Part shown: in pieces, positions 41,982 to 47,338 of the stretch
Position numbering within the stretch: the stretch's first letter is position 1
Layout: each line of letters begins with the position of its first letter
NCBI RefSeq assembly: GCF_007829035.1
Contig: NZ_VIVQ01000001.1
Span: 2,232,001-2,296,000 of the forward strand
Source of the DNA: Rudaeicoccus suwonensis
GTDB lineage: Bacteria; Actinomycetota; Actinomycetes; Actinomycetales; Dermatophilaceae
Length of the DNA stretch: 64,000 bases
Direction of reading: 5' to 3'
Program-made: the position numbers and the translations under genes
Notes under the pieces: model-generated
Told to the model about the DNA's origin: nothing
The model's input: the letters and a program-made list of their open reading frames with translations, nothing else
The model's database searches: none

Positions 41982-44900
41982 TCAGTTCGATGCCGGCGGC
42001 GGCAGCTCACCGGCCGCCGCGCGAGCCCGAGGACCGTGCCGCTCGACGACGCTGTGCCAGGTGAAGGTGCGCAGCACGTCCTCGCGGCCGTAGAACTGAT
42101 CCTCGATGAACGGGTAGATGCTGTAGGTCCAGATGCGTTGCAGCGCAGCGTCATCCAGCCCTTCGACCATGAAGTGGCTGTGCCCGATCTGCAGATGCGG
42201 ACCGCGCAGCGCACGCCGCAACTCGTCGTTGACCAAGTCGACCACGCCGGCGACCCAGACGGGGCCCTCGTGGGTGATCAGCCAGCGTCGCAGCAAGCCC
42301 TCCATCGGACCTTCGTGCGGCATGAACGGCACGAAGTGGAACCGGCGGCGCAGGGCGGCGTCGACCAGGGCGATCGAGCGGTCGGCGGTGTTCATGGTGC
42401 CGATGAAGTACAGATTCGGCGGGAGTTCGAAGCCCTCGTCCGGGCGGTATGACGTCATCACCGACTGCGAGCGGTACTCGAGCAGATACAGCAGTTCACC
42501 GAAGACACGCGGCAGGTTCGCCCGGTTGATCTCGTCGATCAGCATGATGTGCGGGGTGGTCGGGTCGGCCTCGGCGGCCTCGGCCAGCATGGCAAGCGGC
42601 CCGCGCCGCAGCTCGTAGACCATCTGCCCGTCGGCATCCAGCCGCGGGCGGAAGCCCTCGAAGAAGTCCTCGTACGAGGTCGAGGGGTGGAACTGCACGA
42701 CCTGGCGTTTGCTGGAGTCCGGCTGCAAGGCGGCCGCGAGGCGCTGCGCCAGATAGGTCTTGCCGGTGCCGGGCGGGCCGTAGAAGATGACCTGCTTCTT
42801 GTCCTCCAGCAGACCGTGCACCTCGCGCAGGAAGTCTTCGTCGACGAGTAGTTCGCCGGCTGCCTCGGCGATGAGGTCGCGCTCCGGGTCGGCGACCGAC
42901 TCACCCTTGCGCAGCAGCCACAGGGCGAACTGCACCTGTCCCCACGGGTCCGCGGGCAGCAGCGGCTCCAGGCGAGCGCGCAGCCGGTCGTTGGCGACCA
43001 CGTGCAAGCGCGCGCGGTTGGGGTTGTCGATCGGGGGCAGCTCGACGCCGATGGCGCGCGCGACTGCGACCTTGCCGTCGGCACCGCCGAGGGAGTAGAG
43101 CGGCAGATACCGCCCGGGGTGCGCGATGGCCATGAGCTTCATGACGACCGCCTCACCAAGGCCTGCAGCCGGGGAGCCGTCACCGAGGATGTGCTCGATG
43201 CGGGCGACGTCGTCGCCCTCGCCCCACAACAACTGCTTCAGCGAGCGCGCGAAGGCGTCGAGGCCTGCGGCATCCATGCTGGCCAGGCTCGCCTGCAGCA
43301 CCGAGTGTGTGCCGGGGTGTCCGTAGGACCGGCCACCGAGGACGCGCCGGAAGGCGGCCAGGTCGAAGGCGTCGAGGCCCGCGGGTTCCAAACTCTGGGC
43401 GAGCGCACGGCGCTGCTCCAGATGCCAGCGGTCGCGGTCGTTGGGGTACGGCCGCTCGGCCACGAATCGCTCGAGTTGCGAGAGCAATTCGACGTCGACC
43501 GGGCCGGTCGGGGTGGGCTCCTTGCCGGCCATCACCTCAACCAGCGGCGACAGCGCGCGGACGGTCTCGATGACGTCGGCGGCGAAATCCGCCCGTCCCA
43601 GCGCCTGCGGATGCGGCCACCACCGACCGACATACACCTCGCCGCCGGGGAACTCGCGACCGACCGGCTCGACGCGGTCGGCGCTTTCGAGCGCACGCAG
43701 GTGGAAGAAGCGCAAATCCTCGGGCAGGGTCTGCTCGACGGCACGGCCGATCTGCTCGTGCCGCTCCCCCGACCCCGGACCGTCCCAGCCGGAGTGCAGG
43801 CCGACGGCGACACCCGTGCGGGTCACCCACAGCCGGAATCCGGGGGCACCGATGCCGCCGGGCAGGGTCCACGTGGCATGGGCGTCCACCCGGTATGGCG
43901 CATCCTTGGACTGGCCTACGCGGGTCTGCAGGTTGGTCTCGTGCAGCCGCAGGCCGGTAGCGTGCTGCAGCGGTGCGTGCAGCGAGCGGACGGTCAAGGT
44001 CGCGACACCGCGCAACTGCAGCGCCAGCGCGGCTGCCAGCGCCTCGGCCTCGGCGTCGGTGTAACCGGAGGCGGGACGGTAGCCCTCGATGAGTTCGGCG
44101 GCCTCCTCGCAGACGTCCGGCAGCGCAGTGCCGAGCCCCACGAAGCTGCCCTTGCTGCCGAGATAGCCCACTGTTCGTTCGGCGGTGCGCGGGTCGTCCG
44201 GCTCGAAGCTGCGGCACAGCTCCGCGAACGCCAGATAGCGCTCGGCATGGCCCAGGTGACGGCCCATCCAGCCGAGCTGCTGGAACGGATCGGATCCGGC
44301 GGGCCACAGGGTCGGCCAGTCGCCACGCTCGTCGGTCGACCAGAAAAGCGACAGCAGCGTCACCACGCGGGAAGCGTCGAGATCACGGCCGACGAACTCC
44401 TCGAGCGCCCGGATGCGGCCGGCAGCCTCGTCGTCGTTGTTGGGGGTGCGGGTCGTCTCGACCAGCAGGTCGGCGGCGTCACGCTCATAGCCTCCGGCGT
44501 TGCCGCGCAACTGACCCAGCCAGGTCGGCAGCGACACAGCCTGCGCCGCGAACGGGCCGGGGCGCCGGGACCACACGGCGAAGGCCTCGACAAATGCCTG
44601 CAGGTCGCGCCCGAGCGCCAGGTCGCCCAGCAACTCACGCGCCTCGGCGACGCGATCGGCGCGCAGCGAGTCGACCTGGGCCCAGATGCCCTGGGTCGCC
44701 GGGTCATTGTTGGCGGCGACCTTGATGAGCTCGTATGTCGACCGCCACCGGCGCAGATCGCGCTGGCGGCTGGGGCTGGGCGGCTGGACCCGGTGCGCAC
44801 GTTTGGTGTCGAAACCCAGATCCGCCAGATGCGCGGTCACCTCGTCTGGCGACGGGAGTGAGACCGGCGTCAGAGCTCCGAACTCGGGCCGGGCGAAGCC

Positions 44901-45071
44901 GTGGGCGGCCGCCGCGAGGGCTGCGGCGTCATACAGCTCACCCTCGTGCAGGAGCACGTGTTCGGGGTCGGCCTGGAAGCCGTAGGACGACAGGAACGAG
45001 TCGCGCCCTTGGGCCTTCCACTCGCTGACCGCGGCTAGGACGTCATCGCGGGTTATGTCGGACAAGGCCAC
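41982..45071 (-). CDS. mcrB: McrB-type AAA+ GTPase restriction protein with N-terminal head domain
   Basis: A 1,029-residue protein. The C-terminal third is an McrB motor: GPPGTGKTYLAQRLAAAL (Lys 771), LIDEINRANLPRVFGELLYLLEYR and NTADRSIALVDAALRRRFHFVPF. The first 100 residues (SSYGFQADPEHVLLHEGELYDAAALAAAAHGFARPEF) resemble the ScoMcrA-type N-terminal head; this is by-eye similarity. The middle is a large helical region likely to recognise DNA. GTG 45071 follows a GGAG by about 10 nt and agrees with the head-domain start. With mcrC it forms a type IV-like defence pair. Confidence 0.85.
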   Translation of the reverse strand: MALSDITRDDVLAAVSEWKAQGRDSFLSSYGFQADPEHVLLHEGELYDAAALAAAAHGFARPEFGALTPVSLPSPDEVTAHLADLGFDTKRAHRVQPPSPSRQRDLRRWRSTYELIKVAANNDPATQGIWAQVDSLRADRVAEARELLGDLALGRDLQAFVEAFAVWSRRPGPFAAQAVSLPTWLGQLRGNAGGYERDAADLLVETTRTPNNDDEAAGRIRALEEFVGRDLDASRVVTLLSLFWSTDERGDWPTLWPAGSDPFQQLGWMGRHLGHAERYLAFAELCRSFEPDDPRTAERTVGYLGSKGSFVGLGTALPDVCEEAAELIEGYRPASGYTDAEAEALAAALALQLRGVATLTVRSLHAPLQHATGLRLHETNLQTRVGQSKDAPYRVDAHATWTLPGGIGAPGFRLWVTRTGVAVGLHSGWDGPGSGERHEQIGRAVEQTLPEDLRFFHLRALESADRVEPVGREFPGGEVYVGRWWPHPQALGRADFAADVIETVRALSPLVEVMAGKEPTPTGPVDVELLSQLERFVAERPYPNDRDRWHLEQRRALAQSLEPAGLDAFDLAAFRRVLGGRSYGHPGTHSVLQASLASMDAAGLDAFARSLKQLLWGEGDDVARIEHILGDGSPAAGLGEAVVMKLMAIAHPGRYLPLYSLGGADGKVAVARAIGVELPPIDNPNRARLHVVANDRLRARLEPLLPADPWGQVQFALWLLRKGESVADPERDLIAEAAGELLVDEDFLREVHGLLEDKKQVIFYGPPGTGKTYLAQRLAAALQPDSSKRQVVQFHPSTSYEDFFEGFRPRLDADGQMVYELRRGPLAMLAEAAEADPTTPHIMLIDEINRANLPRVFGELLYLLEYRSQSVMTSYRPDEGFELPPNLYFIGTMNTADRSIALVDAALRRRFHFVPFMPHEGPMEGLLRRWLITHEGPVWVAGVVDLVNDELRRALRGPHLQIGHSHFMVEGLDDAALQRIWTYSIYPFIEDQFYGREDVLRTFTWHSVVERHGPRARAAAGELPPPASN

Positions 45072-45170
45072 AGTGCAACAGCTCCGAGGGGTCGGGGATT
45101 TGCGCAAAAGGTTACGGCACCACTCGGAGGCAGCCGGACGCCGATCACCCCATCGGGTGGCTTTGACACG

Positions 45171-45812
45171 ATGGGGTGCGTGACGGTGAGCGGCGGCGGC
45201 AGGAGACGCAACTTCATCGGTGCCTTCAAACCCGATCCAGGCACCGCGGTGGGTCGGGTCATGACGCGGGTCTGCATCGGCACCGACAGTCGGCAGCAGC
45301 TCATCGACCTGCTGCGATGGGAGATCTCCCAGGACACCGCGCTGCAGGATGCCGGGATGCGCCCGGATCTTGCGGCGGGCGTGGTCGCGAAGCTGATCGA
45401 ACACCACAACGAGGCAGTCCCCGACGCCTCACCGATGGCGTACGGCCTGATCACCGCACTGGAGGAACTGGCCGCCGACGGCATCGTGTTCGGATTCGGC
45501 GAGGGCATCGGGGTGCACGACTCGCTCGACGGTGTCGTGCGGGCGGCTGAGATCACGCTGAATGAGGGCGGCCGGGTCGACGGCTACTGCTTCAGCACGG
45601 TCGCGGACGTGGAGCGGATGATCTTCGAGGACCGGCTGTTCATCGGCTTCGGGGTCTTCAACGAGGACGGCAGCGGGTCGCTCGAGATCGGCGAGCGCGT
45701 CGCCAGGGCACTGCGGCAGCGGCAGGTCGCCGTCGAATGGCCCGGGGATGTCGACCACCGCATCCAGGTCGTCGGGCAGTACGAGATTCCGTACGTGGAT
45801 CTGCCCGACTGA
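45171..45812 (+). CDS. DUF6891-like protein
   Basis: A 213-residue protein. A helical N-terminal domain (RQQLIDLLRWEISQDTALQDAG) is followed by an alpha/beta part with DGYCFSTVADVERMIFEDRLFIGFGVFNEDG and IGERVARALRQRQVAVEWPGDVDHRIQV, the pattern of the DUF6891 family of unknown function. Start not certain (ATG 45171 or later GTGs; no clear ribosome site). Divergent from mcrB with a 99-bp gap. Confidence 0.65.
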   Translation: MGCVTVSGGGRRRNFIGAFKPDPGTAVGRVMTRVCIGTDSRQQLIDLLRWEISQDTALQDAGMRPDLAAGVVAKLIEHHNEAVPDASPMAYGLITALEELAADGIVFGFGEGIGVHDSLDGVVRAAEITLNEGGRVDGYCFSTVADVERMIFEDRLFIGFGVFNEDGSGSLEIGERVARALRQRQVAVEWPGDVDHRIQVVGQYEIPYVDLPD

Positions 45813-45824
45813 CGGAAACGGCGG

Positions 45825-45864
45825 TTACTACAGGTGTCGTGAAGATTTACTACAGCTGTTGTGA
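45825..45864 (+). promoter_or_regulatory. Tandem operator before the P450 gene
   Basis: TTACTACAG(G/C)TGT(C/T)GTGA occurs at 45825-45842 and 45847-45864, start to start 22 bp, two helical turns. The core ACTACAGCTGTTGT is a near dyad of the TACA-nn-TGTA kind used by BlaI/MecI-type repressors. A third partial copy GGACTACAGTGAG begins at 45867. Located 50-90 bp before the P450 ATG. Confidence 0.6.
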
Positions 45865-45913: not shown

Positions 45914-47338
45914 ATGCCCACCGCGACCCGTCGCCCACCGGCCAACTGGCCGCATCACGACTTCCCCCATCCGAAGGGGCGCCGGCCGTTCGTCAACGAT
46001 GCTCCGACGATGCTGCGTGGCAACGACCGCCGCCCCCTTCAACGGGCGGTTGCCGTCACCGCGGGCCTCGGCCCGATCTTCGAGATCAAGCTTTTCGGGC
46101 AGAAGCTCGTCTTCGTGCGGGACGCCGCGCTGGCGGCTGAACTCTGCGACGAGTCGCGATTCGAGAAGAAGCTCGCGCCGGGAGTCGCGGCGCTGCGGGA
46201 GGTCGCCGGCGACGGACTGTTCACCGCGTATTCGGACGAGCCCAACTGGCAGCTGGCGCACGACCTGCTGCGCCCGGCCTTCACCAGAGCGGCGATGCAG
46301 GGCTATCACTCCACGATGTTGCAGGTGGCTGGCGAACTCATCGACCATCTCGACCGGGCGACGGAGCCGGTCGACGTCTCCCCGGCACTGACGAAACTGA
46401 CTCTGGAGACCATCGGCCGCACGTCGTTCAGCAAGGACTTCGGATCCTTCACCAAGACAGAACTCGATCCGTTCGTCGCGGCCATGGTGCGCTCGCTCAA
46501 ACGCGGTCAGCAACGCGGGGCGTTGGCCGCGCTGCCGTTCGCCTCGCTGTTGCTGCGTCGCGGGAAGGAGGAGTATGCCGCAGGACGCGCGTACATCGAC
46601 TCCATGATCGACGACATCATCGATCAGCGATTGGCGGGCAACGACGCCGGTGGTCAGGACCTGCTGGGCCTGATGCTGCACTCCGCCGACGAGGCCAGTG
46701 GCGCCAAACTGGACCGGCTGAACATCCGCTACCAGATCCTGACCTTCCTGGTGGCTGGCCACGAAACCACTTCTGGCGCCTTGTCATTCGCGATGTACTA
46801 TCTCGCGACGCAGCCGGCTGTGCGGGCTGCTGCTGCGGCCGAGACCGACGCCATACTCGGCGACGATCCGGATGCCGAGCCCAGCTTCGAGCAGGTCGCC
46901 AAGTTCCGCTACCTGCGCAGAGTGCTGGACGAATCTCTGCGACTGTGGCCGACCGCTCCGGGGTTCGCTCGCGGCCCTCGGCAGGAGACGGTCATCGGCG
47001 GGAAGTACCGCATGACACCGTCCGACTGGTGTATCGTGATGGCCTCGGAGGTGCATCGCGACCCGAAGGTGTGGGGTGACGACGCGCTCGAGTTCGATCC
47101 CGACCGGTTCCTGCCGGCTGCCATCAAGGCGCGACCGGCACACACCTATCTGCCCTTCGGCACCGGCGAACGTGCTTGCATCGGAAGGCAATTCGCCCTG
47201 CACGAGGCGGTGCTGGTGTTGGCGCGGCTGTGTCATCGGTACGACTTCGAGGCTGATCCGGACTACGAGCTGACGATCTCGGAGCGGCTGACCCTGATGC
47301 CGGAAGGTTTCCGGCTCTCGTTCACCCCGCGCCGGTAA
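45914..47338 (+). CDS. Cytochrome P450, CYP102-like heme domain without reductase
   Basis: A 474-residue P450 resembling the heme domain of CYP102A1 (P450 BM3) over its full length: GDGLFTAYSDEPNWQLAHDLL, LTLETIGRTSFSKDFGSF, the I-helix A281-G-H-E-T-T286, the ExxR helix (VLDESLRLW), and heme loop PFGTGERAC422IGRQFALHEA, ending MPEGFRLSF just where the BM3 heme domain ends. Fatty-acid hydroxylation is therefore likely. The FMN/FAD reductase domain of CYP102 is absent and the next gene is not a redox partner, so electrons must come from elsewhere. Confidence 0.9.
   Translation: MPTATRRPPANWPHHDFPHPKGRRPFVNDAPTMLRGNDRRPLQRAVAVTAGLGPIFEIKLFGQKLVFVRDAALAAELCDESRFEKKLAPGVAALREVAGDGLFTAYSDEPNWQLAHDLLRPAFTRAAMQGYHSTMLQVAGELIDHLDRATEPVDVSPALTKLTLETIGRTSFSKDFGSFTKTELDPFVAAMVRSLKRGQQRGALAALPFASLLLRRGKEEYAAGRAYIDSMIDDIIDQRLAGNDAGGQDLLGLMLHSADEASGAKLDRLNIRYQILTFLVAGHETTSGALSFAMYYLATQPAVRAAAAAETDAILGDDPDAEPSFEQVAKFRYLRRVLDESLRLWPTAPGFARGPRQETVIGGKYRMTPSDWCIVMASEVHRDPKVWGDDALEFDPDRFLPAAIKARPAHTYLPFGTGERACIGRQFALHEAVLVLARLCHRYDFEADPDYELTISERLTLMPEGFRLSFTPRR

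Follow-up and report, generated by a model that had tools for sequence, protein, structure and literature searches.

The window analysed here, a stretch of 64,000 nucleotides from Rudaeicoccus suwonensis, encodes an intact, ordinary heme-only member of the CYP102 family of cytochromes P450, similar to CYP102B and CYP102H. We infer for this enzyme an evolutionary direction, an electron donor, a substrate and a mode of repression: the heme-only clade that contains it most likely arose when a fused P450-reductase ancestor lost its reductase, the enzyme is probably a fatty-acyl hydroxylase, its electrons would be supplied by a ferredoxin together with a ferredoxin reductase whose genes lie elsewhere, and a repressor of the TetR family would regulate its gene in trans. 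Taken jointly, these points form a reading towards which we lean.

The P450 protein and its assignment to CYP102

The gene was delineated by its open reading frame, profile and PDB matches, phylogenetic trees and a predicted structure. The gene and the characteristic motifs of its product are located in the window as follows.

45914..47338, forward strand: heme-only CYP102-family cytochrome P450, 474 aa
46754..46771, forward strand: I-helix motif AGHETT, residues 281-286, equivalent to BM3 264-269
46931..46942, forward strand: ExxR motif, residues 340-343
47156..47185, forward strand: heme-binding signature FGTGERACIG, residues 415-424, with heme Cys422

The reading frame starts with ATG at 45914, ends with TAA at 47338 and contains no internal stop codon. 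The protein belongs to the P450 superfamily by its PF00067 match (3e-71; 241 bits, cut-off 22.8) and by its heme-Cys signature. Compared with PDB sequences, it matches the heme domain of BM3 best (366 bits, residues 37-468 aligned to BM3 21-446); when aligned globally, BM3 and the window protein share 43.5% identity across 423 positions. When the AlphaFold2 model of the protein (pLDDT 85.0, pTM 0.87) was compared with the PDB using Foldseek, the 50 matches listed were BM3 heme-domain structures with TMt of 0.92-0.94. The C-terminus lies 6 residues beyond the last BM3-aligned position. According to a preliminary description of this DNA, the similarity to BM3 spans the complete heme domain and the protein stops at the linker, which agrees with the identity and with the best sequence and fold matches. 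All 40 heme-only rows of our alignment keep the heme Cys, Glu and Thr of the I-helix, Glu and Arg of ExxR, and the Phe that corresponds to BM3 F87.

The phylogenetic position within CYP102, also proposed earlier, was recovered: in a tree of 63 rows, the CYP102 rows including the window protein form one clade against 14 other P450s (support 100/100), and a placement outside the family did not appear. In P450 nomenclature, identity above 40% defines the same family and about 55% the same subfamily. The window protein exceeds the family level both with BM3 and with the product of a Streptomyces chartreusis plasmid gene (L082, 52.8%). Judged via the latter, it may represent a separate subfamily.

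Absence of a reductase and possible electron donors

The next open reading frame, encoding a PatB-type PLP enzyme, starts 10 bases after the P450 stop codon, and no reductase is encoded downstream in any frame. A tblastn search with a CYP102 reductase domain gave no match in the two own-genome loci L001 and L006, where about 1.5 kb downstream was covered. Thus, the reported absence of a reductase nearby is confirmed, and an out-of-frame downstream reductase domain, named at that time as a result that would speak against it, was looked for and not seen. The suggested genome search for orphan FMN/FAD reductases was likewise negative: the 3.83-Mb genome (3,827,835 bases, 7 contigs, 99.95% complete) contains 0 matches to the Flavodoxin_1 profile, which was positive in 10 of 14 control genomes, and 0 to FAD_binding_1, positive in 3 of 14. 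A CPR-like or CysJ-like reductase, fused or free, was therefore not found. A self-sufficient P450 joins P450 and reductase in one chain, which the window gene does not do; the C-terminal diflavin reductase that is typical of CYP102, yet not required, is missing from its product.

The missing reductase half itself, and nothing else, would fit an artefact in which a fused full-length gene was shortened by a frameshift, an assembly break or a wrong frame. This explanation is practically untenable and can be regarded as already refuted, because orthologs in the independent assemblies of Flexivirga (L026), Leekyejoonella (L180) and genome G022 (L181) have the identical end point; their neighbours are partly common with those of the window gene, and the genome has no reductase domain matches.

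A separate electron donor is still required, as the preliminary description had stated, with no dedicated gene nearby and none obvious in the genome. Profile searches of the genome gave five P450, four NAD_binding_1 and 30 Pyr_redox_2 matches, as well as one Fer4_15 match (the family that the ferredoxin search covered), and no P450-type donor stood out among the ferredoxin and ferredoxin reductase candidates examined. Two of these were rejected: the ferredoxin match L115 has ApbE-like and membrane-redox genes as neighbours (read by eye), and the ferredoxin reductase L123 adjoins a Rieske-like ORF and a monooxygenase cluster (the cluster read by eye). No small acidic ferredoxins were found by a crude motif filter in 21 stretches around heme-only genes.

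The lack of a donor gene nearby or obvious genome-wide would be explained if the enzyme were a peroxygenase like CYP152, which needs no reductase. However, the protein retains the Glu-Thr pair that O2-activating P450s have in the I-helix (E284 and T285, kept in 40/40 heme-only rows) and that CYP152 enzymes, to our knowledge, do not have, and its tree position is within CYP102, so that we consider peroxygenase function very improbable. The default donor would be a ferredoxin with its ferredoxin reductase.

Distribution and genomic neighbourhood

In a class-wide search, P450 matches at 1e-40 were found in 125 of 394 genomes. The best 29 loci besides the own one (L056, L087-L114) all lack a reductase within flanks of about 1.5 kb, and among the loci screened with tblastn every one whose P450 exceeds 51% identity to that of the window is without reductase. 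Fused loci show 37.6 to 50.6% identity, a range in which heme-only loci also occur. The heme-only state is thus not unusual but common in actinobacteria, and it is already in print: according to PMC9728198, CYP102B1 of Streptomyces coelicolor and CYP102H1 of Nocardia farcinica are CYP102 enzymes without a fused reductase. The window gene is a further member of this published kind.

The distribution of the heme-only gene is patchy across a set of 38 genomes, its own included. Open heme-only genes more than 50% identical to it are present in five of them (G000, G006, G010, G017, G022), and one genome has a broken copy with stops in the frames (G004, contig 228, 255-1413). The fused type occurs in three genomes, in which the reductase was shown (G005, G013, G028).

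Among named relatives, the genes of Flexivirga meconopsidis and of Leekyejoonella antrihumi are nearest, each with 72% identity. Around the Flexivirga gene, McrB-like, DUF6891, PatB-like and serA-like (PGDH) matches are conserved in order, and so are two further ORFs, recognized by eye as mutase-like and beta-lactamase-like. Neighbours in common with the window are PatB, PGDH and mutase-like genes in Leekyejoonella, and PGDH in G022. Since Flexivirga, Leekyejoonella and G022 have such neighbours in common, the heme-only gene is resident in part of the host family, taken here to be Dermacoccaceae, to which Flexivirga is assigned. The McrB-like AAA domain belongs to a large protein encoded at 41982-45407 on the reverse strand of the window, whose Flexivirga counterpart in the same place is 77% identical. 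The PatB-like gene was considered as an operon partner, at 10 bases from the P450 gene in the window, and rejected, being distant in the relatives: about 0.6 kb away in Flexivirga and about 1.6 kb in Leekyejoonella, with other ORFs between.

Other arrangements were observed in more distant genomes. Heme-only and fused-type CYP102 genes lie 5.8-12.3 kb apart in six genomes (G588, G726, G618, G563, G465, G685); the fused partner was recognized by its reductase in G588, G726, G618 and G465, and by open-frame length in the others. On the S. chartreusis plasmid NZ_CP108841, a reductase match is found about 10.6 kb from the heme-only gene. The heme-only P450 genes on plasmids of Nocardia farcinica (pNF1, L081) and Rhodococcus opacus (L083) are located immediately behind a MAB_1171c-type or DUF6545 gene, with HTH or ImmA/IrrE genes near.

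Origin of the heme-only clade

The first heme-domain trees, a quick and a careful build, included 92 rows hand-picked from the tblastn-screened loci and BM3, the BM3 row lacking its first 20 residues. A later tree comprised 96 rows, with 21 rows added and 17 near-duplicates dropped. The 63-row tree is a subset of these 96 that omits, among the fused rows, L038, L148, L159, L160, L161, L164, L165, L197, L238 and L243. We denote as F1 the fused group nearest to the heme-only clade and as F2 the remaining fused lineages; both were named after the first trees had been seen. In the reductase tree, L198 and L218 each contain one stop, treated as a gap, and a thinned version was built without seven long rows (L046, L154, L159, L161, L167, L197, L242).

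With the exception of L177 and L178, the heme-only rows form one clade of actinobacterial enzymes, with 32 rows in the 96-row tree (99/98) and 19 rows in the 63-row tree (98/97). Its place relative to the fused rows bears on whether the window gene is a pre-fusion form or a fission product, between which the preliminary description left the choice. Under the pre-fusion explanation, the heme-only clade branched off before P450 and reductase were joined and kept the ancestral separate partners. The careful outgroup trees, in which heme-only rows are sister to all fused rows (91/86 with 92 rows, 70/57 with 63), are in its favour. However, this support is weak, the quick 92-row outgroup tree nests the heme-only clade among fused rows, and constraining the heme-only rows together with F1 costs 1.55 log units (p-AU 0.40), so that the nested tree is equally good, neither better nor rejected. 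Because the builds disagree, we set aside the heme tree rooted on other P450s as evidence on the root and claim none from it; the heme data alone cannot tell the two explanations apart.

The remaining trees argue for fission. In the ingroup-only heme tree, heme-only and F2 rows each form a clade with 100/100 support, and the heme-only clade stands beside an F1 subgroup (81/82). With CysJ-type flavoproteins as the root, the reductase domains fall into a single clade (100/100) within which F1 is nested among F2 lineages (95/94; 96/95 in the thinned tree). Pre-fusion, as drawn in the careful outgroup trees, would need F2 to be held together; forcing it in the reductase data was rejected with p-AU of 0.0191 and 0.0323, values that are somewhat generous because the groups were defined with the first trees in view. 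Given one fusion, a root within F2 means that the heme-only clade would descend from a fused ancestor. The reductase-tree root inside the fused set thus moderately favours fission. From these sequence comparisons we consider it probable that fission of a fused ancestor gave rise to the heme-only clade, and pre-fusion rather unlikely.

The heme-only rows L177 and L178 (genomes G663 and G526) fall inside a fused group (98/90 in the 96-row tree, 100/99 in the 63-row tree), which looks like a second, independent loss of the reductase. The highly divergent fused protein L197 (G473, contig 4; heme domain 29% identical to the window P450, reductase 35% to a CYP102 reductase) is basal to all others in the 96-row tree and was not used as evidence because of its branch of 2.38. 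A CYP102-like P450 on plasmid B of Sinorhizobium americanum CCGM7 (L238, 2537-4561) has partial reductase similarity, confined to the first ~190-210 residues, that is, to the FMN part, and extending beyond the annotated gene end.

The joining of P450 and reductase is generally presented as a gain in one direction. In literature covering a minority of subscription journals, no account of CYP102 fission was seen among titles and opening lines of abstracts. If the heme-only enzymes are derived from fused ones, a large clade and a separate pair would make the reversal and its surface changes directly testable. The value of the window gene is that of a single data point, its clade possibly recording the breakage of a self-sufficient P450.

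Surface and substrate-site residues

R47 and Y51, fatty-acid contacts of BM3, are replaced by Q63 and F67 in the window P450, which is a point against the favoured reading. At BM3 position 48, 26 of the 40 heme-only rows carry Lys or Arg. Position 383, on a loop touching the FMN domain, is Arg or Lys in 36/40 heme-only rows, 0/17 F1 rows and 5/27 F2 rows. BM3 K98 corresponds to Leu in 25/40 heme-only rows, and this position is Lys or Arg in 15/17 F1 and 17/27 F2 rows. Position 391 is Lys in 31/40 heme-only rows and Leu in the window protein, which counts against a simple story.

Putative regulation by a TetR-family repressor

The promoter of the window P450 gene has two operator-like boxes (ACTACAnnTGTnGT) common to promoters of TetR-family genes, both detected by box scans.

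45826..45842, forward strand: operator-like box TACTACAGGTGTCGTGA
45848..45864, forward strand: second operator-like box TACTACAGCTGTTGTGA, starting 22 bases after the first

With up to 2 mismatches, the window contains 3 box matches (two sites, one on both strands) against 0.19 expected. The genome-wide number of matches, 5, equals that of a backwards control (also 5), and single matches therefore mean nothing. The sole other close pair of boxes in the genome, on contig 1 at 922396 and 922425 (922396-922441, L249), lies 69 bases upstream of a gene for a TetR-family protein (PF17940; 922510-923142).

Relatives were scanned over 186,866 bases, comprising the window, seven relative P450 loci and eight TetR loci; the host-family loci L014 and L058 were omitted. 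L058 has no exact core hexamer upstream. A 14-base pattern with up to 1 mismatch on both strands gave 28 matches, against 0 for a reversed control. It precedes four of eight heme-only P450 genes (window, L026, L180, L181) and four of eight TetR-family genes (the own gene L253, and L254, L256, L257). At L259 the pattern lies behind the TetR match, and none was found at this threshold at the TetR loci L255 (Leekyejoonella), L258 and L260. The presence of the box at the P450 gene of Leekyejoonella and its absence at the TetR gene count against TetR control.

Fatty-acid-responsive TetR control of the window P450 in trans is plausible, because Bm3R1 and FatR, according to PMC3814354, are TetR-family repressors of Bacillus CYP102 genes that are displaced by fatty acids. 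More doubtful is an extended scenario in which fission would have been followed by remodelling of the proximal face for free ferredoxins (a basic residue at 383, the basic residue at 98 often lost), and which adds one or more separate fissions (L177/L178) and TetR control in trans in Dermacoccaceae. If true, it would mean that self-sufficiency was given up more than once.

Comparison with known systems

The window P450 resembles BM3 (CYP102A1) in heme-domain sequence (43.5% identity) and predicted fold; in contrast to BM3, whose single chain includes the reductase, it has none, and BM3 R47 and Y51 are not kept. As in the Bm3R1 and FatR systems (PMC3814354), a CYP102 gene would be tied to a palindromic operator and a regulator of the TetR family, whereas the candidate regulator gene is elsewhere in the genome and linked through the common boxes.

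CYP102B1 of S. coelicolor, as described in PMC9728198, likewise consists of an actinobacterial CYP102 heme domain and lacks a fused reductase; the title of a reference cited there (Lamb et al. 2010) calls it a fatty acid hydroxylase. The nearest named Streptomyces heme-only gene is that of the S. chartreusis plasmid, at the 52.8% identity given above. CYP102H1 of N. farcinica, named in the same source, is also a heme-only CYP102. The pNF1 gene of N. farcinica, a candidate for CYP102H1, encodes a protein 45.3% identical to the window P450; it is plasmid-borne, next to a MAB_1171c-type gene, whereas the window gene is chromosomal and lies beside serA-like and PatB-like genes.
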